This document shows, piece after piece, positions 11,118-56,288 of a stretch of DNA of 64,000 nucleotides. Position numbers and translations under genes: made by a program. Under the pieces are notes generated by a model that did not search any database, was not told where the DNA came from, and saw only the letters and a list, made by a program, of their open reading frames with translations. Source of the DNA: Methylobacterium sp. NMS14P (lineage in GTDB: Bacteria > Pseudomonadota > Alphaproteobacteria > Rhizobiales > Beijerinckiaceae); the NCBI RefSeq assembly GCF_028583545.1, contig NZ_CP087106.1:1866501-1930500 (forward strand), read 5' to 3'. Position 1 is the first letter of the stretch, and each line of letters opens with the position of its first letter.

Positions 11118-12446
11118 TCACTCCAACCCCGGCACCGGCACCCCGAAGGCCGCCGCCAGCAGCACCATGTTGAGGGCGAGCACCAGGGCGGCCCCCGCCA
11201 CGGCCGCGGCCTGGGTGAGCGGCCCGTTGGCGAACGGGCCCATCACGCTGCGGCGCCGGGTGAACACCACCAGCGCCACCATCGGGACCGGCAGGGCGAG
11301 CGACAGCACCACCTGCGACAGGACCAGCGCCTGCGTCGGGTCGACCCCGATCGCCACCACCGCGAAGGCCGGCAGCATGGTCACGAGCCGGCGGGCGAGG
11401 AGCGGGATGCGCCAGCCGGTGAAGCCCTGCATCACCAGCTGCCCGGCGAGCGTGCCCACCACCGAGGAGGAGATGCCGGAGGCGAGCAGCGACACCAGGA
11501 AGGCCGCCCCCGCGGCGGGCCCGAGGAGCGGCGTCAGGGTGCGGTAGGCCTCGCCGATCTCCGCCACCTCGCTGTGGCCGACGTGGAAGGCCGCCGCCGC
11601 CATGATCACCATCGCCATGTTGACGAGGCCCGCCAGCAGCAGCGCCACCACCACCTCGCGGTTCGAGTAGCGCACCAGCAGGCGCCGGTCGGCCTCGGTG
11701 CGGGGGTTGCCCCGCCCCTGGGTCAGGCCCGAATGCAGGAACAGCGCGTGCGGCATCACGGTGGCGCCGATGATCCCGACCGCGATGGTGAGCGCCTGCG
11801 CGTCCGGGATCCGCGGGGTGACGAGGCCCTTGGCGGCCTCGCCCCAGGCCACCGGCGCGACGAGGAGCTCGACCGCGTAGCAGAGGCCGATCGTGCCGAC
11901 CATCGCGCCGATTGCGATCTCCAGCGGCCGGAAGCCCTCGTGCTCCAGGAGCAGGATCGCGTAGGTGACCACCGCGGTGATCGCCATGCCGGCCATCAGC
12001 GGCATGCCGGTGAGCAGCGACAGGCCGATGGCGCCGCCGAGGAACTCCGCGAGGTCGGTCGCCATGGCGGCGACCTCGCTGATGCCCCACAGCGCGAGGC
12101 GCACCGGCCGCGTCGTCGCGTCCCGGCAATGCTCGGCGAGGTTCTTGCCCGTCACGATGCCGAGCTTGGCCGACAGGGCCTGGAACAGCATCGCCGTCAG
12201 GTTGGCGAGCAGCACCACCCAGAGCAGGCCGTAGCCGTAGCGGGCGCCGGCCTGGATGTTGGTCGCGAAATTCCCGGGGTCCATGTAGGCGATCGACGCC
12301 GTCACGGCCGGGCCGGCGAACAGCAGGAACCGGGCCCGGCCGCCGGGACGGCCGTCGAGGACGTCGCGGATCGCGCCCTCGGTCCGCCGGCTCATCGCCC
12401 CGGGCGCGGCGCGCCCGGGGGCCGTCGCGGCGTTCGGCGCCACCAT
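11118..12446 (-). CDS. mntH: Nramp-family manganese/divalent metal transporter MntH
   Basis: A 442-residue Nramp transporter with eleven or so membrane helices. It has the metal-binding DPGN motif in helix 1 (ASIAYMDPGNFATNIQAG) and the helix 6 MPH motif (GIIGATVMPHALFLHSGL), both diagnostic. It should import Mn2+ (and possibly Fe2+) with protons across the inner membrane. Translation probably starts at ATG 12446, which has GAGGAG 9 nt upstream; a GTG two codons earlier is less well placed. It is divergent from mntR, and a palindromic MntR box lies just upstream of its start, so repression by Mn-bound MntR is expected. Confidence 0.93.
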   Translation of the reverse strand: MVAPNAATAPGRAAPGAMSRRTEGAIRDVLDGRPGGRARFLLFAGPAVTASIAYMDPGNFATNIQAGARYGYGLLWVVLLANLTAMLFQALSAKLGIVTGKNLAEHCRDATTRPVRLALWGISEVAAMATDLAEFLGGAIGLSLLTGMPLMAGMAITAVVTYAILLLEHEGFRPLEIAIGAMVGTIGLCYAVELLVAPVAWGEAAKGLVTPRIPDAQALTIAVGIIGATVMPHALFLHSGLTQGRGNPRTEADRRLLVRYSNREVVVALLLAGLVNMAMVIMAAAAFHVGHSEVAEIGEAYRTLTPLLGPAAGAAFLVSLLASGISSSVVGTLAGQLVMQGFTGWRIPLLARRLVTMLPAFAVVAIGVDPTQALVLSQVVLSLALPVPMVALVVFTRRRSVMGPFANGPLTQAAAVAGAALVLALNMVLLAAAFGVPVPGLE

Positions 12447-12465
12447 GCTCACCCTCTCCTCAAAG

Positions 12466-12483
12466 ATATAGCGGAGGCTATAT
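12466..12483. promoter_or_regulatory. MntR box upstream of mntH
   Basis: A perfect inverted repeat ATATAGC-GGAG-GCTATAT, flanked by AAAG on the left. It matches the E. coli-type MntR operator layout (CATAGC, four bases, GCTATG inside A/T flanks). It lies 20 nt upstream of the mntH start codon, in the gap between divergent mntH and mntR, and is one of the few A/T-rich spots there. Repression of mntH is the likely role; control of mntR is possible but its start is 150 bp away. Confidence 0.85.
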
Positions 12484-12632
12484 TCAGGGTTCGGCGCCGG
12501 GATTCAAGGGTCAGGTTTCGAGGGCCGGGATTCGCGGGGCCCGCACCGCCTCCGCGGGACTCCCCTCCCCGGGGCGGTGTTTGCTAGACAGGGGTCGGGG
12601 CGGCCCGCGCGGGCCGTGGTGGGGGAGAGCCG

Positions 12633-13094
12633 ATGCAGGAACCGTCCGAGCCGGGCTCGCCCGAGACCGTGCTGGTCGATCCCGAGCGCCACGTGGAGAG
12701 CTTCCGCCAGGCCCGCGAGGCGCGGCGCTCGGAGCTCGTGGAGGATTACGTCGAGCTGATCGACGACCTGATCGGCGACGGCGGCGAGGCGCGGCAGGTG
12801 GACATCGCGGCCCGGCTCGGCGTGGCGCAGCCGACCGTCGCCAAGATGCTGAAGCGCCTGTGCGAGGACGGGTTCGTCCAGCAGCGGCCCTATCGCGGCG
12901 TGTTCCTGACCGAGGCCGGCCGCCGGCTCGCCGCGCAGGCCCGGGAGCGCCACCGCATCGTCGAGCGCTTCCTGTGCGCGCTGGGGGTGAGCCCCGAGAC
13001 GGCCCGGCGGGACGCGGAGGGGATCGAGCACCACGTCAGCGCCGAGACGCTCGCGGCGTTCCGCGCCTTCGCGGAGCGGCACGGGGGGGCGTGA
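12633..13094 (+). CDS. mntR: Manganese-responsive regulator MntR
   Basis: A 153-residue DtxR/MntR-family repressor. An N-terminal arm leads into the winged helix ([12 protein letters not shown], then [20 protein letters not shown] and [10 protein letters not shown]). The dimer and metal-binding helices include [11 protein letters not shown] and [10 protein letters not shown], where the His, Glu and Glu-x-x-Glu-His-type ligands of MntR are retained. There is no SH3-like third domain, as expected for MntR rather than DtxR. A GGGGGAGAG sequence precedes the ATG. Being divergent from mntH with a palindromic operator between them, it should repress Mn uptake when Mn is sufficient. Confidence 0.92.
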
Positions 13095-13112: not shown

Positions 13113-14309
13113 TCACACCATCGGCGCCGCCACCTTCTGGCGCAGGCCCAGGATCACCGCCCGGAGCATCTCGGCCCCGGCCTCGCCGGCATCCGGCAGG
13201 GTGCCGGTGCGGGAGGCGTAGATCCGCTCGTGCACGAAGGCGAGCTTGGCGATCACCGCAGGCGTCAGCTTGAACGGGTAGAGCGCCGGCTGGCCCATGC
13301 TGTGGGACAGCGAGTTGATCGCGTAGGTGAGCGGCAGCCACGCGGCGATCAGCCGGTCGAGGTCGGCCGTGTTGTACGGGTCGAAGTCGATCACCGTCGG
13401 CGCCTGGGGCACGGACTGCCCCCGCTGGCGCAGGCGCGGGCGCACGTGCAGCTCGAAGGTCGAGGCGGTCTCCACCGTGTCGACGATGTGCAGGTAATGC
13501 GCGAAGGTCTCGGCGAAGTCCTCCCACGGATGGGCCGTGGCGTAGGCCGAGACGTAGGCCTCGTCCCAGTCGGCGGGGGCGCCCTTGGCGTAGTGCTCCT
13601 GCAGGGCCTGGACGTAGTTCAGCCGCTCGTCGCCGAACAGGGCTCGGAAGGGCTCCCAGGAGGGGCTGTTCAGCACCAGCAGGTACCAGAAGTAATGCCC
13701 GATCTCGTGCCGGAAATGGCCGAGCAGGGTGCGGTAATGCTCGCCGAACAGGATCCGGCGGCGCTCCCGCTCGACGTCGTCGGCCTCGGCGATGTTCATG
13801 GTGATCAGGCCGTTGATGTGGCCCGTCAGCACCGGCGGCCCGCCGGAGACGCTCTCGGACGGGTCGACCAGGAAGTCGAAGGCCAGCCCGTCCGTGTACT
13901 GGGCGCGGGTGGCGAGCGGCAGTTCCAGGCGCAGCAGCGAGTAGAACAGCCGGTGCTTGGCCGCCTCGATCGGGCGCCAGCGCGCGAGGTTCCAGGGCTG
14001 CGACAGGTCCGGGACCACGCGGTTGTGGCGGCAGGCGGTGCAGTAGATGTCGGGGCTGTCCTCCGGCACCAGCCAGTTGCAGGCCTGCGCGAGGGCGTTG
14101 TTGCACCGCCGGTAGCGCCGGCCGGGATCCGCGTAGGCGTGGAAGACCTGCGCCCCGCCCATCAGCGGGTGGGCCGAGAGCCCCTGGGGCTCCAGCGCCG
14201 AGACCTCGTGGACCGTGCAGGCGTAGCCCAGCGGCCGCGCGCAGCTCTCGCAGGCGGTCGCCTCGAAGGTGACCGGCTGGTCGCAGGCCTGGCACTGGAA
14301 GATCTTCAT
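13113..14309 (-). CDS. Zinc-ribbon putative metallopeptidase
   Basis: A 398-residue protein of the putative zinc-binding metallopeptidase family (PF10005/PF15887 type). The N-terminus is a zinc ribbon (CQACDQPVTFEATACESCAR); a second Cys pair, CTACRHN, comes near residue 90. The gluzincin-like HExxH is in FRHEIGHYFWYLLV, and EDFAETFAHYLH downstream supplies the likely third ligand. No signal peptide, so it is probably cytoplasmic. ATG 14309 is chosen because the ribbon begins at once; the frame to 14654 runs into the opposite gene. It is divergent from the transglutaminase gene across 195 bp, which suggests a shared peptide-processing role. Confidence 0.82.
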   Translation of the reverse strand: MKIFQCQACDQPVTFEATACESCARPLGYACTVHEVSALEPQGLSAHPLMGGAQVFHAYADPGRRYRRCNNALAQACNWLVPEDSPDIYCTACRHNRVVPDLSQPWNLARWRPIEAAKHRLFYSLLRLELPLATRAQYTDGLAFDFLVDPSESVSGGPPVLTGHINGLITMNIAEADDVERERRRILFGEHYRTLLGHFRHEIGHYFWYLLVLNSPSWEPFRALFGDERLNYVQALQEHYAKGAPADWDEAYVSAYATAHPWEDFAETFAHYLHIVDTVETASTFELHVRPRLRQRGQSVPQAPTVIDFDPYNTADLDRLIAAWLPLTYAINSLSHSMGQPALYPFKLTPAVIAKLAFVHERIYASRTGTLPDAGEAGAEMLRAVILGLRQKVAAPMV

Positions 14310-14504
14310 GGCGCGGTCCCGGGCCGGCGGCCGGCCCACCTGCCGGTCAAGCGGGGCCGGGCGGCAAAGTTCCTGCCGAGCGACCGGGTGGCGGCGCCGC
14401 ACGGAAATTGCTTGCCGGCGGGGTAGTATCGCATAACCGCGCGGTGGGCGCCGGCGCCAGGGACCGGCAGCGCGACCGCGTTCGATCCTTCCGACGGAGC
14501 CATC

Positions 14505-17500
14505 GTGTCGATCAGAGCCGCCCTGCACCACGTCACGCATTACCGCTACGACCGGCCGATCAGCCTGGGCCCCCAGGTGATCCGCCTGCGCCCGGCCCCC
14601 CACGCGCGCACCAAGGTCCCGGCCTACGCGCTCACGGTGACGCCGGCCAACCACTTCCTGAACTGGCAGCAGGATCCGAGCGGCAACTGGCTCGCCCGCC
14701 TCGTCTTCCCGGAGAAGACCGACGAGCTGAAGATCGAGGTCGACCTCACCGTCGACATGGCGGTGATCAACCCGTTCGACTTCTTCGTGGAGGATTACGC
14801 GCAGGTCCGGCCGTTCGCGTACGACCCCGGCCTCGCCGAGGAGCTGGCCCCCTACCTCGCCCCGGTCGACGCGGAGTGTCCGGAGATGGAGGCGCTGCTC
14901 GCCCGTCTCCCCACGGAGCCCAGCACCGTCCAGTTCCTAGTGGCGCTGAACGGCCTGATCGCCCGCGAGACCGCCTACGGCGTCCGCATGGAGCCGGGCG
15001 TCCAGACCCCCGCCGAGACCCTGCGGCTGAAGAGCGGCTCCTGCCGCGACTCGGCGTGGCTGCTCGTGCAGGTGCTGCGCCGGATCGGCCTCGCCGCCCG
15101 GTTCGTCTCCGGCTACCTGATCCAGCTCGTGCCCGACACGACCGCGGTCGACGGGCCGACCGGCGCGTCGTCGGACTTCACCGACCTGCACGCCTGGGCC
15201 GAGGTCTACCTGCCGGGCGCCGGCTGGGTCGGGATGGACGCCACCTCGGGCCTGCTCACCGGCGAGGGCCACATCCCGCTGGCCGCGACGCCGCACTACC
15301 ACTCGGCCGCGCCGATCTCGGGGGCGATGGAGCCCGCCGAGACCGCGTTCGACTTCAAGATGACCATCACCCGCGTCGCCGAGACGCCGCGGATCACCAA
15401 GCCGTTCCCGGAGGCGGTCTGGGCCGCCATGGACGCGCTGGGCGAGCGGGTCGACGCCGACCTCGCCGCGCAGGACGTGCGCCTGACCATGGGCGGCGAG
15501 CCGACCTTCGTGTCGGTGGACGACTTCGAAGCGCCCGAGTGGAACATCGCGGCCGTCGGCCCGACCAAGCGGGGACTCGCCGACCAGCTGATCCGGCGCC
15601 TGCGCGACCGGTTCGGCCCGGGGGGGCTGCTCCATTACGGCCAGGGCAAGTGGTATCCCGGCGAGAGCCTGCCGCGCTGGGCCTTCGCGCTCTACTGGCG
15701 CAAGGACGGCCAGCCGATCTGGCGCAACCCGGACCTGATCGCTCCGGAAGCCGCCCCCGGGCAGGCGGGGACGGCCACCATCGCGCGGGCCGAGGCGTTC
15801 GCCGACGCGCTGGCCCGCCGCCTCGGCCTCGCCGACTACGTCTTCCCGGCCTTCGAGGACGGCGAGCTCTGGGAGAGGAAGACCGCGGCGCTGCCGGTCA
15901 ACGTCACGCCGGCCGACGCCAAGTCGGGCTCGGTGGAGTTCGATGCCCGGATCAGGCGGGTCTACGCGCGGGGCCTCGGGGAGGCGGCCGGCTACGTCCT
16001 GCCGCTGGCGAGCCTGCCCACCGGCCAGGACGGCGAGGCCGACCGGGTCTGGATCTCGGAGAAGTGGGACTTCCGGCGCGGCGCCGCCTTCCTGGTGCCG
16101 GGGGACTCGCCGGTGGGCTTCCGCCTGCCCCTGTCGTCCCTGCCCTACGTGCCGCCGGAGCACTACCCGTACTACCAGCCGCAGGACCCGCTGGAGCCCC
16201 GCGCCGCCCTCCCCGACGGGCATCCCGGCGCCACGGTGGTCAACGGCGCCGGCGTCACCGGCGTCGCGGTGCGCACGGCCCTGTCGATCGAGCCCCGCGA
16301 CGGGGTGGTGCGGGTGTTCATGCCGCCGGTGCAGCGCGCCGACGAGTATCTCGAACTCGCCGGCCACCTGGAGGCGGTGGCCGCCGAGCTGGGGCTGCCG
16401 ATCCACCTCGAGGGCTACGAGCCGCCCTACGACCCGCGCATCGGCGTGATCAAGGTGACGCCCGATCCCGGCGTGATCGAGGTGAACGTCCACCCGGCCG
16501 CCTCCTGGCGGGAGGCGGTCGCCATCACCACCGACCTCTACGCCGAGGCCCGCCAGACCCGGCTCGGCGCGGAGAAGTTCATGACCGACGGGCGCCACAC
16601 CGGCACCGGCGGCGGCAACCACGTGGTCATGGGCGGCGTCACGCCGGACGATTCGCCGTTCCTGCGCCGGCCCGACCTGCTGAAGAGCCTCGTGCTGTAC
16701 TGGCAGCGCCACCCGGCGCTCTCGTACCTGTTCTCGGGCCTCTACATCGGGCCCACGAGCCAGGCGCCGCGCATGGACGAGGCCCGCCACGACGGGCTCT
16801 ACGAGCTCGAGATCGCGCTGGCCCAGGTGCCGGCCCCGGACGCGCCCAACATCCCGCGCTGGCTCGTCGACCGGATCTTCCGCAACATTCTCGTCGACGT
16901 CACCGGCAACACCCACCGGGCCGAGATCTGCATCGACAAGCTCTACTCGCCGGACGGCCCGACCGGGCGCCTCGGCCTCCTGGAGTTCCGCGCCTTCGAG
17001 ATGCCGCCGGACGCGCGGATGAGCCTCGCGCAGCAGCTCCTGCTCCGCGCCCTCGTGGCCTGGCTGTGGCGCGAGCCCCAGACCGGGAGTTGTGTCCGCT
17101 GGGGCACGAACCTCCACGATCGGTTCATGCTGCCGCATTTCCTCTGGTCCGACTTCCTCTCGGTGCTGGAGGATCTGCGGGCGGCGGGGTACGCTTTCGA
17201 TCCGGTCGCCTTCGAGGCGCAGGCCCTGTTCCGCTTCCCGGTCTTCGGCACGATCGAGCAGGGCGGGGTCCGGATGGAGTTGCGCCAGGCGCTCGAGCCC
17301 TGGCACGTGATGGGCGAGGAAGGGACCAGCGGGGGCACCGTGCGCTTCGTCGACAGCTCGGTCGAGCGGCTGCAGGTCAGGGTCGAGGGCTTCGTGCCCG
17401 AGCGGCACGTCATCGCCTGCAACGGCCGCCGCCTGCCCATGACCTCCACCGGCCGCGGCGGCGAGGCCGTGGCGGGCCTGCGCTTCAAGGCGTGGCAGCC

Positions 17501-17783
17501 GGCCTCCTCGCTGCACCCGACCATTCCGGCCCACTCGCCGCTGACCTTCGACATCCTCGACGCCTGGAGCGGGCGCTCCCTCGGCGGCTGCCGCTACCAC
17601 GTCGCCCATCCGGGCGGGCGCAACTACGAGACCCATCCGGTCAACGCCTACGAGGCGGAGGGGCGGCGCCTCGCCCGGTTCCAGCCGAACGGCCACACGC
17701 CGGGCCGGGTGGACATGCCCCGCCCGGAACCGAGCGCCGAGTTCCCGCTGACCCTCGACCTGCGGACGCCGGCCCCGCAATGA
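14505..17783 (+). CDS. Transglutaminase-like / DUF2126 protein
   Basis: A 1092-residue two-part protein. Residues 1-280 are a bacterial transglutaminase-like domain: the beta-sandwich N-terminus ([20 protein letters not shown]), then the papain-like triad in [12 protein letters not shown] (C180), [12 protein letters not shown] (H229) and WVGMDATSG (D245). About 310-1080 is the DUF2126 region, with strongly conserved blocks such as [18 protein letters not shown] and [12 protein letters not shown]. The GTG start has GGAG 7 nt upstream. Members of this family occur with circularly permuted ATP-grasp and Alpha-E proteins, exactly as here. The catalytic domain is more likely a peptidase or amidase than a protein crosslinker. 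The substrate is unknown. Confidence 0.9.
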
Positions 17784-17842
17784 TCCGCGATGTTCGGACA
17801 TCCGGGTCGGACACCGGCGCGGGCGACAGAGCGCGACGCGCC

Positions 17843-17997
17843 CCCTCTCCCGTGCGGGAGAGGGTTGGGGTGAGGGACGAGAGGCTTCAGGAGCGGGCAC
17901 TCCTCCATCGACGCGCGTTCGCGTCGCGCTTCATCCGGCGAGACCTGATCCCTCACCCGGCTTCCTGCGCGAGCAGACCTCTCCCGCACGGGAGAGG
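17843..17997. repeat. Paired CCCTCTCCCG hairpins (dispersed repeat family)
   Basis: Two near-palindromes, CCCTCTCCCGTGCGGGAGAG (17843 on) and CCTCTCCCGCACGGGAGAGG (17978-17997), sit 115 bp apart. Between them TTGGGGTGAGGG and CCCTCACCCGG form an outer inverted repeat, so the whole unit can fold into one long structure. It lies in the 289-bp gap between the DUF2126 and ATP-grasp genes. Related copies are at 49146 and 56192. Confidence 0.8.
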
Positions 17998-18072
17998 GGA
18001 CCCGCGCTCCGCTCTGCAGCCACGTCGTCCACGACGTGTGGCTCCGCGGGCCGCGATGACCCGGTATCCGTG

Positions 18073-20610
18073 ATGGAGGCGGCGCTCGCGGGCAGCCGCG
18101 GCCGGGCCGAGCGGCCGGAGGGCGCGCGGGAGCGCGTCGCCCGCTGGAGCGCGGGCTACCGCCCGGCGCCCGGCCGGCCGGACGAGTTCCTGGGCCCCGA
18201 CGGCGCGCCCCGCGGGGCGTGGCCGCGCCTGCTCGACCGTCTCGGCGGCCTCACCGAGCCGGAGATCATGGCCCGCTTCGTCGCGGCGGAGCGGCACATC
18301 CGGGACGCGGGCATCTCGTTCCGCATCGCCGGCGACCAGCGCGAGCATCCCTGGCCGCTGGGCTGCCTGCCCCTGGTGATCGAGGGGGCGGAGTGGGCGG
18401 CGCTCAGCGCCGGGATCGTCCAGCGCGCGGAGCTGATGGAGGCGATCCTCGCCGACGCCTACGGCGAGGGCCGGCTGGTCGCCGAGGGGCTGCTCCCCGC
18501 CGCGATCGTGGCCGGCACGCCCGAGTTCCTGCACCCGCTCCACGGGGTCGCGCCCCCCGGCGGCCACTACCTCAAGCTCTACGCCGCCGATCTCGGCCGG
18601 GGGCCGGACGGGCGCTGGCAGGTGCTCGCCGACCGGACCCAGGCGCCCTCGGGCCTCGGCTGGGCGCTGGAGAACCGCATGGTCCTGGCCCGGACCTTCC
18701 CGGACTTCTTCCAGGACCTCCACGTCGAGCGCCTGCCGGCCTTCTTCCAGGCGTTCCGCGACGGGCTGGCGCTGGGGGCGGAGCGCGCCGACCCGCGGAT
18801 CTGCCTGCTGACCTCCGGCCCCTACAGCAGCACCTACGTCGAGCAGGCGGCGCTCGCCCGCTATCTCGGCCTGATGCTGGTGGAGGGCGACGACCTCGTC
18901 ATGCGGGACGGGTGCCTGCACGTGCGTACCGTCTCGGGCCTGAAGCGGGCCGACGCCCTGTGGCGGCGGATCGACGCCGACTTCCTCGACCCCCTGGAGC
19001 TGAACCCGGCCTCGCGGCTCGGCGTGCCCGGCATCCTCGACGCCCTGCGCAACGGCTCCCTGGTGATGGCCAACATGCCGGGCGCGGGGCTCGTCGAGTC
19101 GGCCGCGCTCGCCCCCTATCTCGACGGCATCGCCCGGCGCGTCCTCGGCGAGCCCCTGCGGCTCGGCCACCCGCGCACGTGGTGGTGCGGCGACCTCGAG
19201 GGCCTGGCGCACGCGCGGGCCAACCTCGACAGCCTGACCCTGCGCCCGGCCGCCACGCCGCAGCGCGGCGCGGCGCGCGACGCGATCCTGGCCGGCCCGG
19301 TCCTGGCGGCGGAGCGGGAGCGGGTCGTGGCGGCCCTGCGCGACCGGCCCTTCGACTACGTCGCCCAGGAGGCGGCGCCGCTCTCGACCATGCCGGGCTG
19401 GGAGCGCGGTCCGGACGGCCTGTTCCTGACGCCCCGCCCCTTCGCGGTCCGCGTCTTCGCCGCGCGGACGCCGCTCGGCTGGCAGGTCATGCCCGGCGGC
19501 TTCTGCCGGGTCTCGGAGCGCGAGGACGTCGACCCGATCGAGCTGCGGCTCGGCATCCGCTCCGCCGACGTCTGGGTCCTGTCCGAGGCGCCGGTCGCCG
19601 CGCCCCTGATCGGCACGCAGGCGGCCCCGCGGGTGCGGCGGGTCGGCGGCCACCTCCCCGCCCGGGCCGCCGACGGCCTGTTCTGGCTCGGCCGCTACCT
19701 GGAGCGCGGCGAGGCGGTGATCCGGCTGGTGCTGGCCCATCTGCGCAGCGTCGGCGACGCGGTCGGGACCGACATCTCGGGCGCCCTCGACACGCCGGCG
19801 GCCCTGGCGCTCCGGGCCCTGCTGCACGAGTGGGGCGCCATCGGTGCGGCCGACCTGCCCACCGCCCGCCTCGCCCAGGAGGCGCTGGCCGGGCGGGACC
19901 GGCCCGGCTCGGCCCGGTCCCACGTCATCGCGGCCCGCCGCAACGCCGCCGCGCTCCGCGCCCGCCTGTCGGGCGAGGCGTGGCGGGTGCTCGCCGACCT
20001 GAACGAGTTCCTGTCCCTCAACACCGCGCGGGCCTTCACCGAGTCGCAGCTCGCGGGCCGCGCAGAGCGGGCGCTGAGCCAGCTCGCGGCGCTCGCCGGC
20101 CTCACCCACGAGAACATGAGCCGGGCCGAGGGCTGGCACTTCATCGAGCTCGGCCGGCGGATCGAGCGGGCGATCAACACCGGCGCCTTCGCGCTGGCCT
20201 TCGCCAACGACGAGGCGACCCCCGGCTGCCTCGGGGTGATGCTGTCCCTGTGCGATTCGCAGATCAGCTACGGGCGGCGCTACCTGCAGGGGGCGGCCCT
20301 CGACCCCGTGCGCGACATGGTGCTGCTCGACCCCTACAACCCGCGCTCGATCGCCTTCCAGGCGGAGGCGATCACCCGGCACCTCGCCGACCTGCCGGCG
20401 CTCGCCGCGGACGGGATCCCCGAGCCCCATTGCCGCCTCGCCACCCGGATCCTGGCGGAGCTGCGCAGCGGCGAGGCCGCGGATTTCGACGCCGTGCGCC
20501 TGACCGCGCTCGCGACCGACCTCGAGCGCCTCGCCGACGGCATCGCGGCCCGCTACTTCCCCACCGGGCCGAACGCGCTGCGCCCCGAGAAGCTGACGGG
20601 GCTGGCTTGA
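18073..20610 (+). CDS. Circularly permuted ATP-grasp fused to Alpha-E domain
   Basis: An 845-residue fusion. Residues about 60-500 are the circularly permuted type-2 ATP-grasp (DUF404/DUF407): FRIAGDQREHPWPLGCLPLV, then LLTSGPYSSTYVEQAALARY and a Gly/Trp-rich block (HPRTWWCGDLEG). From about residue 525 the Alpha-E domain begins (HLPARAADGLFWLGRYLERG) and runs helical to the end (DLERLADGIAARYFP). The ATP-grasp part should form an amide or peptide-like bond using ATP; the Alpha-E part is thought to bind or handle the product. In many bacteria these are two neighbouring genes. ATG 18073 is used; an adjacent GTG at 18070 is possible. It lies between two transglutaminase-like genes, all on the same strand. 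Confidence 0.9.
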   Translation: MEAALAGSRGRAERPEGARERVARWSAGYRPAPGRPDEFLGPDGAPRGAWPRLLDRLGGLTEPEIMARFVAAERHIRDAGISFRIAGDQREHPWPLGCLPLVIEGAEWAALSAGIVQRAELMEAILADAYGEGRLVAEGLLPAAIVAGTPEFLHPLHGVAPPGGHYLKLYAADLGRGPDGRWQVLADRTQAPSGLGWALENRMVLARTFPDFFQDLHVERLPAFFQAFRDGLALGAERADPRICLLTSGPYSSTYVEQAALARYLGLMLVEGDDLVMRDGCLHVRTVSGLKRADALWRRIDADFLDPLELNPASRLGVPGILDALRNGSLVMANMPGAGLVESAALAPYLDGIARRVLGEPLRLGHPRTWWCGDLEGLAHARANLDSLTLRPAATPQRGAARDAILAGPVLAAERERVVAALRDRPFDYVAQEAAPLSTMPGWERGPDGLFLTPRPFAVRVFAARTPLGWQVMPGGFCRVSEREDVDPIELRLGIRSADVWVLSEAPVAAPLIGTQAAPRVRRVGGHLPARAADGLFWLGRYLERGEAVIRLVLAHLRSVGDAVGTDISGALDTPAALALRALLHEWGAIGAADLPTARLAQEALAGRDRPGSARSHVIAARRNAAALRARLSGEAWRVLADLNEFLSLNTARAFTESQLAGRAERALSQLAALAGLTHENMSRAEGWHFIELGRRIERAINTGAFALAFANDEATPGCLGVMLSLCDSQISYGRRYLQGAALDPVRDMVLLDPYNPRSIAFQAEAITRHLADLPALAADGIPEPHCRLATRILAELRSGEAADFDAVRLTALATDLERLADGIAARYFPTGPNALRPEKLTGLA

Positions 20611-20618
20611 TGTTGTGT

Positions 20619-20665
20619 GTCCTTGACGCTGCCGCCTCAAGGACGATCCGCAGCAGGGGCTGCGG
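20619..20665. repeat. Two adjacent hairpins between ATP-grasp and transglutaminase genes
   Basis: The first is GTCCTTGA with its complement around a 10-nt loop (20619-20644). The second is CCGCAGC-AGGG-GCTGCGG (20648-20665). No T-tract follows. They could attenuate or process the polycistronic message in this 115-bp gap. Confidence 0.55.
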
Positions 20666-20725
20666 CGCGCCTTCGCGCTTGCCGGCGACCGCAGGCGACG
20701 GACGTCGCGATGGGCGGTCGCTGGG

Positions 20726-21625
20726 ATGATCTACACGCTGCGCCACCGCACCGCCTACCGCTACGGCCGGCCGGTGCACTTCGCCCGCTGCACCCTGCGG
20801 CTCAAACCGCAGGACGGCGAGGGCCAGAGCGTGCTGGCGAGCGCCGTCACGATCGACCCGAGCCCCGCCCGCGCGGTCATGCGGCGCGACTATCTCGGGA
20901 TCGACGCGGTGGCGATCACCCTGGAGACGCCGCACACCGCCTTCAGCGTCGAGGCGCTCTCCACCGTGCGGGTCGAGCGCCCGGCCCCGCCGCCGCCGGA
21001 ATCCGGGACGTCCTGGGAGCGGGTCCGCGACGCCGTCCTGGCGGGGCGCGACCTCGGCGGCCGGGCGCCGGTGCACTTCCTGTTCCCGAGCGGCCGGGTG
21101 CCGCTGCTGCCCGCGATCGCCGACTACGCGCGCCCGAGCTTCGCCGCCGGCCGCAGCGCCTACGGGGCGGCCCACGACCTGATGCTGCGGATCGGCCGGG
21201 ATTTCCGCTTCGACGCCCGGGCCACCACCGTCTCGACGCCGCTCGCGGAGTCCTTCGCGCTCCGGGCCGGGGTCTGCCAAGACTTTGCCCACGTGATGAT
21301 CGCCGCCCTGCGCGGCATGGGCCTGCCGGCGGCCTATGTCAGCGGCTACCTGCGCACCGTGCCGCCGCCCGGCCGCCCGCGCCTGCGCGGGGCGGATGCG
21401 AGCCACGCCTGGGTGGCGGTCTGGTGCGGCGAGGGCTGGCTCGGCCTCGACCCGACCAACGGCGTCGCGGTGCGGGACGACCACATCGTGGTGGCCCGCG
21501 GCCGCGACTACGGCGACGTGGCGCCGGTCGACGGCATCGTCAGCGGCTCGGGCAAGCAGCGCCTCAAGGTCGAGGTCGACGTCATCCCCGACACCGAGAC
21601 GCAGGATCTCGCGCTGGTGGGGTGA
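20726..21625 (+). CDS. Transglutaminase-family cysteine peptidase-like protein
   Basis: A 299-residue protein with a bacterial transglutaminase N-terminal domain (YTLRHRTAYRYGRPVHFARC, residues 3-22) and a core with an intact triad: RAGVCQDFAHVM (C184), DASHAWVAVWCG (H227) and GLDPTNG (D242). It is a shorter paralogue of the N-terminal half of the DUF2126 protein upstream. Standard for this gene cluster is a transglutaminase of this size beside ATP-grasp and Alpha-E. The ATG at 20726 begins the conserved N-terminus, with only a weak ribosome site. It probably cleaves an isopeptide or peptide made by the ATP-grasp partner. That is inference from context. Confidence 0.88.
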   Translation: MIYTLRHRTAYRYGRPVHFARCTLRLKPQDGEGQSVLASAVTIDPSPARAVMRRDYLGIDAVAITLETPHTAFSVEALSTVRVERPAPPPPESGTSWERVRDAVLAGRDLGGRAPVHFLFPSGRVPLLPAIADYARPSFAAGRSAYGAAHDLMLRIGRDFRFDARATTVSTPLAESFALRAGVCQDFAHVMIAALRGMGLPAAYVSGYLRTVPPPGRPRLRGADASHAWVAVWCGEGWLGLDPTNGVAVRDDHIVVARGRDYGDVAPVDGIVSGSGKQRLKVEVDVIPDTETQDLALVG

Positions 21626-49145: not shown

Positions 49146-49240
49146 CCCCCTCTCCCGCACGGGAGAGGGGGCCTGACGCTGCCGGCGAGACCGGGCTCGC
49201 CGTCCTTCCCGGCCGTTGCAACATGGTCGGATACGGCTCT
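49146..49240. repeat. CCCTCTCCCG repeat, extended copy
   Basis: The hairpin CCCCTCTCCCGCACGGGAGA with flanks is followed by GGCCGTTGCAACATGGTCGG and GGCTCTAG. The copy at 56192 has the same hairpin core and the same tail form (GGCCGTTGCACCACGATCGG, then GGCCCTAG), so the unit is about 95-100 bp. It lies between the convergent lyase and GlxA genes. Confidence 0.82.
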
Positions 49241-55983: not shown

Positions 55984-56288
55984 GGCCCGTCTCCGCCTTC
56001 AACGCGGGCGGCCACCGCGCCCGGACGCGTGCGACGCGACGGAGGCCGCGCCGGGGCCGAGCGCCGCCTGGAATAACCCATCACTGCCTCCGCTGGTACT
56101 CCCGCAACCCAGGACGGGGGAGCGAATCGGGCCGCCGTCGCCCGGGACAGGGCCGACGGCCGAGCCCGTCCGTGCCGGGGGACGCGCGGCTCCCCTCGCC
56201 CGCACGGGAGAGGGGGCAGGGCACGGCGCGGCTGTCTCGACCGGAGATGCCTGTCGTCCTGGCCGTTGCACCACGATCGGGCGCGGCC
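55984..56288. other. Convergent intergenic region carrying a dispersed repeat
   Basis: This 305-bp gap lies between the receiver-like gene (rightward) and the UbiH-type gene (leftward). From 56192 it holds the second extended copy of the CCCTCTCCCG repeat, whose tail GGCCCTAG includes the UbiH stop codon. The left part, 55984-56190, has no recognisable gene. Confidence 0.6.

Follow-up and report, generated by a model that had tools for sequence, protein, structure and literature searches.

Which of the proteins encoded by a block of four neighbouring genes in Methylobacterium sp. NMS14P could act as a ligase, and what do the others contribute? The block, here called the cassette, lies in a stretch of 64,000 nucleotides (contig NZ_CP087106.1 of assembly GCF_028583545.1, positions 1,866,501 to 1,930,500), hereafter the window, and its genome is numbered G000. 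A domain search of the window genes recovered all four genes with the domains given in the first-pass annotation (Table 1): a zinc-ribbon HExxH metallopeptidase divergent from the rest, a transglutaminase-DUF2126 protein, a circularly permuted ATP-grasp fused to Alpha-E, and a second transglutaminase-fold protein. The proposal made there, of a block able in principle to both form and cut an amide-linked product, is still plausible with DUF2126 as the likelier ligase, since the fused ATP-grasp has lost its ligands and is unsupported in that role. The first-pass annotation mentioned neither of the two points on which this shift turns, namely the amidoligase prediction for DUF2126 itself and the degenerate active site of the ATP-grasp.

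The fused protein has the overall fold and the family profile of a circularly permuted ATP-grasp, the fold being clearly of the glutathionylspermidine/glutathione synthetase type. The motif D...LEDN...VVKPxNESGGYG of intact relatives aligns with D318, E330-Y-N332 and K533 of E. coli Gss, and D318, E330, N332 and K533 are presumably the metal and ATP ligands of that enzyme; at the profile level, the intact ATP-grasps gave no significant match to E. coli Gss. When the ATP and metal ligands were checked by alignment, they proved to be lost. Among 23 fused and 7 separate proteins, the fused ones lack E186, N188, K391, the glycine-rich loop ESGGYG, which is eroded in all 23, and the NSSQGGGSK stretch; D173, E257, D274, D499 and W501 are kept. 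An extended set comprised 189 rows, 163 of them of at least 700 residues, 23 separate and 3 short ones that are fragments of fused proteins. Glu at 186 and Asn at 188 occur in none of the 163 fused rows, K391 in 6 and K344 in 1, versus all four residues in 23 of 23 separate rows; the window has E186 changed to Ala, N188 to Arg, and R and A at the two lysine positions. As 117 of the 163 fused rows came from a list of near relatives and the other 46 from the window and loci, the spread of the degeneracy rests on these 46. A fused ATP-grasp working as a peptide ligase, with the transglutaminases and the metallopeptidase processing its product, would agree with the synthetase fold, the five residues kept and the release of phosphate from ATP by an ATP-grasp of an Anbu operon, described as four genes in the parts of PMC6376114 used here. 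Such a ligase is very unlikely with both metal ligands gone from every fused row, the ATP lysines nearly so and the loop eroded, and the domain looks like a pseudo-ligase; this loss shifts the likely ligase from ATP-grasp to DUF2126.

A tree of 70 ATP-grasp rows was built by a quick method with the four trait columns removed, several long branches being flagged. All 46 fused rows in it (L002 being the window's own copy) are degenerate and all 24 separate rows canonical, and the fused/separate and degenerate/canonical splits need one change each, with support 100. The separate ATP-grasp of the window genome (L001, the same gene as in the operon L038) is canonical. Genome G069 holds a third, stand-alone ATP-grasp paralogue (L165, 3224-4672), which sits on a long branch and whose metal and ATP residues are canonical.

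DUF2126, by its Pfam name a predicted amidoligase, has a predicted structure with the glutamine-synthetase (GS) fold, and retention of this fold suggests ATP use. E332, E659, H706, E827 and R829 are invariant in 30 of 30 aligned rows; their correspondence to metal and nucleotide residues of GS is tentative, drawn from GS motifs and a non-significant YbdK-type alignment. A sequence search of solved structures with DUF2126 gave nothing convincing. Both transglutaminase-fold proteins keep full Cys-His-Asp triads, as had been claimed from the first. The triad of the DUF2126 protein (C180/H229/D245) is invariant in 30 of 30 aligned rows, and a rougher check on mechanically called open reading frames (ORFs) of DUF2126 size, cut at 300 residues, found it in 38 of 49 and not in 11. 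That of the second protein (C184/H227/D242) is present in 36 of 38 homologous ORFs, the other two having Cys-Cys-Asp.

PafA and Dop are GS-fold enzymes that attach or remove a small protein tag, and DUF2126 might likewise add or remove a tag, the tagged proteins being degraded by Anbu or the metallopeptidase. The predicted GS fold fits such a role, as do Anbu-like proteins near DUF2126 in 5 of 21 loci (3 of 15 families) and in the separate operon of the window genome (L038, 5176-5928; PF00227, 26 bits), a protein which we presume to be Anbu from the start of its sequence and its operon. Among the cassette's flanking genes scanned no Anbu gene was found. Tagging was proposed for Anbu operons in the parts of PMC6376114 used here, where peptidase activity was not seen for YbAnbu, and no small tag-like gene recurs near DUF2126 at the 21 loci (ORFs of at least 90 residues only), which makes tagging rather unlikely. 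Of the recurrent ORF clusters in that neighbour survey, numbers 3 to 12 except 8 were rejected, as most of their members overlap genes of the cassette and the ORFs look spurious. Cluster 8 is a response regulator with three receiver domains and a cyclase domain (e.g. L157, 3576-5315), found close to DUF2126 in 4 loci, each from a different family.

The occurrence of these genes was surveyed in 120 Pseudomonadota genomes, with linkage defined as lying within 10 kb. DUF2126 was found in 40, the metallopeptidase in 17, Alpha-E in 69 and CP_ATPgrasp_2 in 70 (69 above the cut-off). By hand count, which also applies to the other ATP-grasp numbers below, all 69 have a separate ATP-grasp that is of the intact type by score and length, its residues being confirmed in the tree and alignment rows only. 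The fused protein occurs in 37 of the 120 genomes, all among the 69. Every one of the 40 DUF2126 genomes lies inside the 69 (chance 2e-13, kinship uncorrected), and from this nesting DUF2126 seems to need an intact ATP-grasp system. Thirty-five of the 40 have the fused type (G085 of these cut by a contig end), and it was not found in G036, G049, G064, G076 and G097, some of which are draft. Of the 40, 38 have an ATP-grasp of one type or the other within 10 kb of DUF2126 (the exceptions being G064, where it lies elsewhere, and G049, at a contig end), and 26 have a separate-type one there. The first-pass annotation was right on the fusion in 845 residues; its remark that the two parts are usually separate genes was not confirmed for this setting, the fusion being ordinary for this cassette type.

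The metallopeptidase was taken to start at MKIFQC, since its relatives begin MKxFxC; for the same reason a 513-residue ORF reaching 14654 was rejected as too long. H201, E202, H205, E263 and E267 are invariant in 17 of 17 aligned proteins, so that the HExxH motif (H201-E202-x-x-H205) and the downstream Glu of a gluzincin metallopeptidase (PF15887) are both present, with E267 a candidate third metal ligand by motif. No convincing solved relative was found in a sequence search of solved structures (best E 0.46). Linkage in related genomes, the check set beforehand for its membership, is above chance and recurs in several lineages. Five of the 17 genomes that carry the gene have it linked to the system (G000, G028, G095, G050 and G102) versus 0.16 expected (P 4e-7, kinship uncorrected; G000 and G028 are of the same genus). 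The Alpha-E set is present in 16 of the 17 (P 0.0005) and DUF2126 in 11 (P 0.004). A scan with one genome per species took the best 80 of at least 576 confirmed stretches and is therefore biased to close relatives; 28 of these best 80 loci have DUF2126 (24) and/or ATP-grasp (25) within 10 kb, DUF2126 being mostly divergent from the metallopeptidase. They include Burkholderiales, a Saccharospirillum, Hymenobacter and Ferruginibacter, the latter two without DUF2126 in the stretch. That the metallopeptidase is an unrelated neighbour would agree with its being unlinked in 12 of 17 carrier genomes and in 52 of the best 80 loci (with a flank below 5 kb in 11 of the latter). This is unlikely given the excess over expectation and the scatter of linkage on a tree of 81 metallopeptidases (29 linked, 41 unlinked and 11 undetermined rows), where at least 12 changes are needed and 4 are forced by starred branches. 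Further against it, the gene abuts an Anbu-like gene in G102 and stands between DUF2126 and Alpha-E/ATP-grasp in Caballeronia sp. Lep1P3. Unlinked metallopeptidases share ORF clusters among their neighbours. In the Caballeronia stretch (L223, 6235-7272) the fused ATP-grasp/Alpha-E region matches in short pieces only, with no annotated gene, and DUF2126 and the metallopeptidase are both annotated. L094 (Gluconacetobacter) and L111 (Ferruginibacter) have the fused protein, a transglutaminase and the metallopeptidase, with no DUF2126 in the stretch.

A growth condition is offered by Burkholderia cenocepacia H111, for which the parts of PMC5491218 used here describe a cluster of DUF404/407, DUF403, a transglutaminase-like and a large transglutaminase-like protein as NtrC- and sigma-54-dependent, beside urease, glnA, urate oxidase and transport genes. 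Anbu is reportedly up under nitrogen limitation in Pseudomonas putida, as cited in the sections used of PMC6376114 and PMC5666114. In the window a sigma-54-like site facing the metallopeptidase has 2 mismatches and a score of 12.5 of 14.5, reached in 0 of 300 shuffles; among the Methylobacterium/Methylorubrum loci scanned its position is kept only in the nearest relatives, L043 and L044. The scan covered 25 divergent loci (22 + 3), the divergent linked locus L077 being left out. Sites scoring at least 12.5 face the metallopeptidase in 10 of 25 (the window, L043, L044, L047 at 315 nt from the gene, L102, L106, L121 and L221-L223) and DUF2126 in 4 (L054, L102, L106 and L121). Metallopeptidase-facing sites occur in 6 of 6 Burkholderiales loci versus 4 of 13 Methylobacterium/Methylorubrum or same-genus loci. 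A GCA(C/T)G-N4-TTGC motif ahead of DUF2126 (window 14397-14411; L032, L043-L046, L048-L052) was rejected as a sigma-54 site as its GG is missing. The cassette might also be a degradative set for nitrogen scavenging, its cysteine and zinc peptidases opening amide-linked material and DUF2126 serving as a hydrolase or in amine salvage. The control of the H111 cluster, the Burkholderiales sites and the count of three hydrolase-type domains versus one possibly intact ligase-type domain agree with this; the GS fold with its suggested ATP use speaks against it, and scavenging is accordingly given a low probability.

The explanation preferred here, with roughly an even chance, is an accessory amide-ligation and cleavage set that responds to nitrogen, with DUF2126 as ligase, a pseudo-ligase ATP-grasp and an optional metallopeptidase. 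Of its elements, the analysis shows the domains, the loss of ligase residues, the predicted DUF2126 fold, the linkage and the nested occurrence; the reactions, the scaffold role and the nitrogen role in Methylobacterium are what we infer. The cassette would work alongside the separate ATP-grasp/Alpha-E/transglutaminase/Anbu operon of the same genome. The transglutaminase-DUF2126 protein would be a two-headed enzyme, in which the GS-like half spends ATP on making an amide or isopeptide bond and the Cys-His-Asp half hydrolyses or transfers such a bond. The fused ATP-grasp/Alpha-E may be a binding scaffold or regulator, perhaps paired with the intact ATP-grasp; trimming or release of products may fall to the second transglutaminase-fold protein and to the metallopeptidase, and scarcity of nitrogen may switch on or raise production of the cassette. 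More tentatively, the ATP-grasp ligase may, after one duplication and fusion to Alpha-E, have given up catalysis and become a non-catalytic partner in machinery for nitrogen starvation. There the DUF2126 protein, a GS-like and thiol-amidase double enzyme, would build and break amides, with the metallopeptidase as an optional releasing enzyme.

Several results weigh against the preferred explanation. Confidence in the DUF2126 model is middling (pLDDT 71.8) and the DUF2126 profile has no significant match to GS, GshA-type/GCS or YbdK-type families (P 0.033 at best, for the YbdK type), which leaves an intact GS active site a presumption. The metallopeptidase is within 10 kb in only 4 of 40 DUF2126 genomes (hand count); with linkage above chance in several lineages it is thus a real but optional partner. 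The large protein of the H111 cluster (PMC5491218, parts used) is only presumably DUF2126. In the window, no NtrC-like palindrome was found, sigma-54-like matches number 15 versus 20 expected, and the best one on the DUF2126 side falls short of significance (p 0.09), so the metallopeptidase-facing site is only suggestive of a nitrogen role there.

Predicted amidoligase/transglutaminase clusters and Anbu operons are known; what sets this variant apart is its pseudo-ATP-grasp, together with the nested occurrence and a metallopeptidase that is optional. Anbu operons consist of ATP-grasp, Alpha-E, a transglutaminase-like protein and Anbu (PMC6376114, PMC5666114, parts used). The window genome has one (L038), and the cassette shares homologues of the first three, whereas its ATP-grasp is fused to Alpha-E and degenerate, DUF2126 is added and the adjacent gene encodes a metallopeptidase in place of Anbu. 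E. coli Gss joins synthetase and thiol amidase in one chain, a layout like that of the DUF2126 protein, and shares the ATP-grasp fold with the fused protein; in the cassette, however, the thiol domain has a GS-like partner as its synthetase, and the ATP-grasp, a pseudo-ligase, is found in another protein. GS and gamma-glutamylmethylamide synthetase resemble DUF2126 in predicted fold, but no significant sequence relation was found and the DUF2126 protein has an extra N-terminal transglutaminase-fold domain. The Pseudomonas RloABC/RimK-RimB system likewise combines ATP-grasp, transglutaminase fold and a peptidase idea, but with a RimK-like ATP-grasp, an aspartic peptidase and an inactive membrane transglutaminase, and the main text of PMC12239564, in the parts used, holds neither DUF2126 nor alpha-E as a term. 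The literature search found nothing under the name DUF2126 or joining two of COG2308, COG2307, COG4307 and COG4196, and no wording of an inactive, pseudo or degenerate ATP-grasp in the part of the DUF403/404/407 literature covered, Iyer 2009 lying outside it. Alpha-E genes are widespread (69 of the 120 genomes), and the literature passages covered report no product. Biochemistry is redirected by an apparent pseudo-ligase linked to DUF2126 towards DUF2126 and the separate ATP-grasp, and nitrogen limitation and the metallopeptidase are now offered as a growth condition and an added protein for study.

Table 1. Features of the cassette and its intervals (window positions)
Feature	Position	Strand	Details
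Zinc-ribbon PF10005 + gluzincin-like metallopeptidase PF15887	13113..14309	-	398 aa; HExxH residues 201-205; candidate third ligand E267
Divergent intergenic region, 195 bp	14310..14504		between metallopeptidase and DUF2126 genes
Candidate sigma-54 -24/-12 element	14364..14378	-	faces metallopeptidase gene, ~53 nt ahead of start
Transglutaminase-fold (PF08379+PF01841) + DUF2126 (PF09899) protein	14505..17783	+	1092 aa; transglutaminase residues 1 to ~280; DUF2126 ~300-911
Gap, 289 bp, with two palindromes (17843-17864, 17977-17998)	17784..18072		between DUF2126 and fused genes
Circularly permuted ATP-grasp (PF14403/PF04174) fused to Alpha-E (PF04168)	18073..20610	+	845 aa; ATP-grasp ~37-505, degenerate; Alpha-E ~529-830
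Codons 186-188, A-D-R where intact relatives have the E-D-N metal-ligand motif	18628..18636	+	from alignment
Second transglutaminase-fold protein (PF08379+PF01841)	20726..21625	+	299 aa; C184-H227-D242

Among the flanking genes scanned, the cassette has MntR- and MntH-type genes on one side, the MntH-type transporter and MntR-type regulator (11118-13094) directly adjoining the metallopeptidase gene, and a PPOX flavoprotein on the other. In G028, a genome of the same genus, the starts chosen make the DUF2126 and fused genes overlap, versus the 289-bp gap in the window. The palindrome CCCTCTCCCG-NN-CGGGAGAGGG, with up to 2 mismatches, has 4 copies in the window versus 0 expected, the two in this gap and two more at 49148-49169 and 56193-56214.
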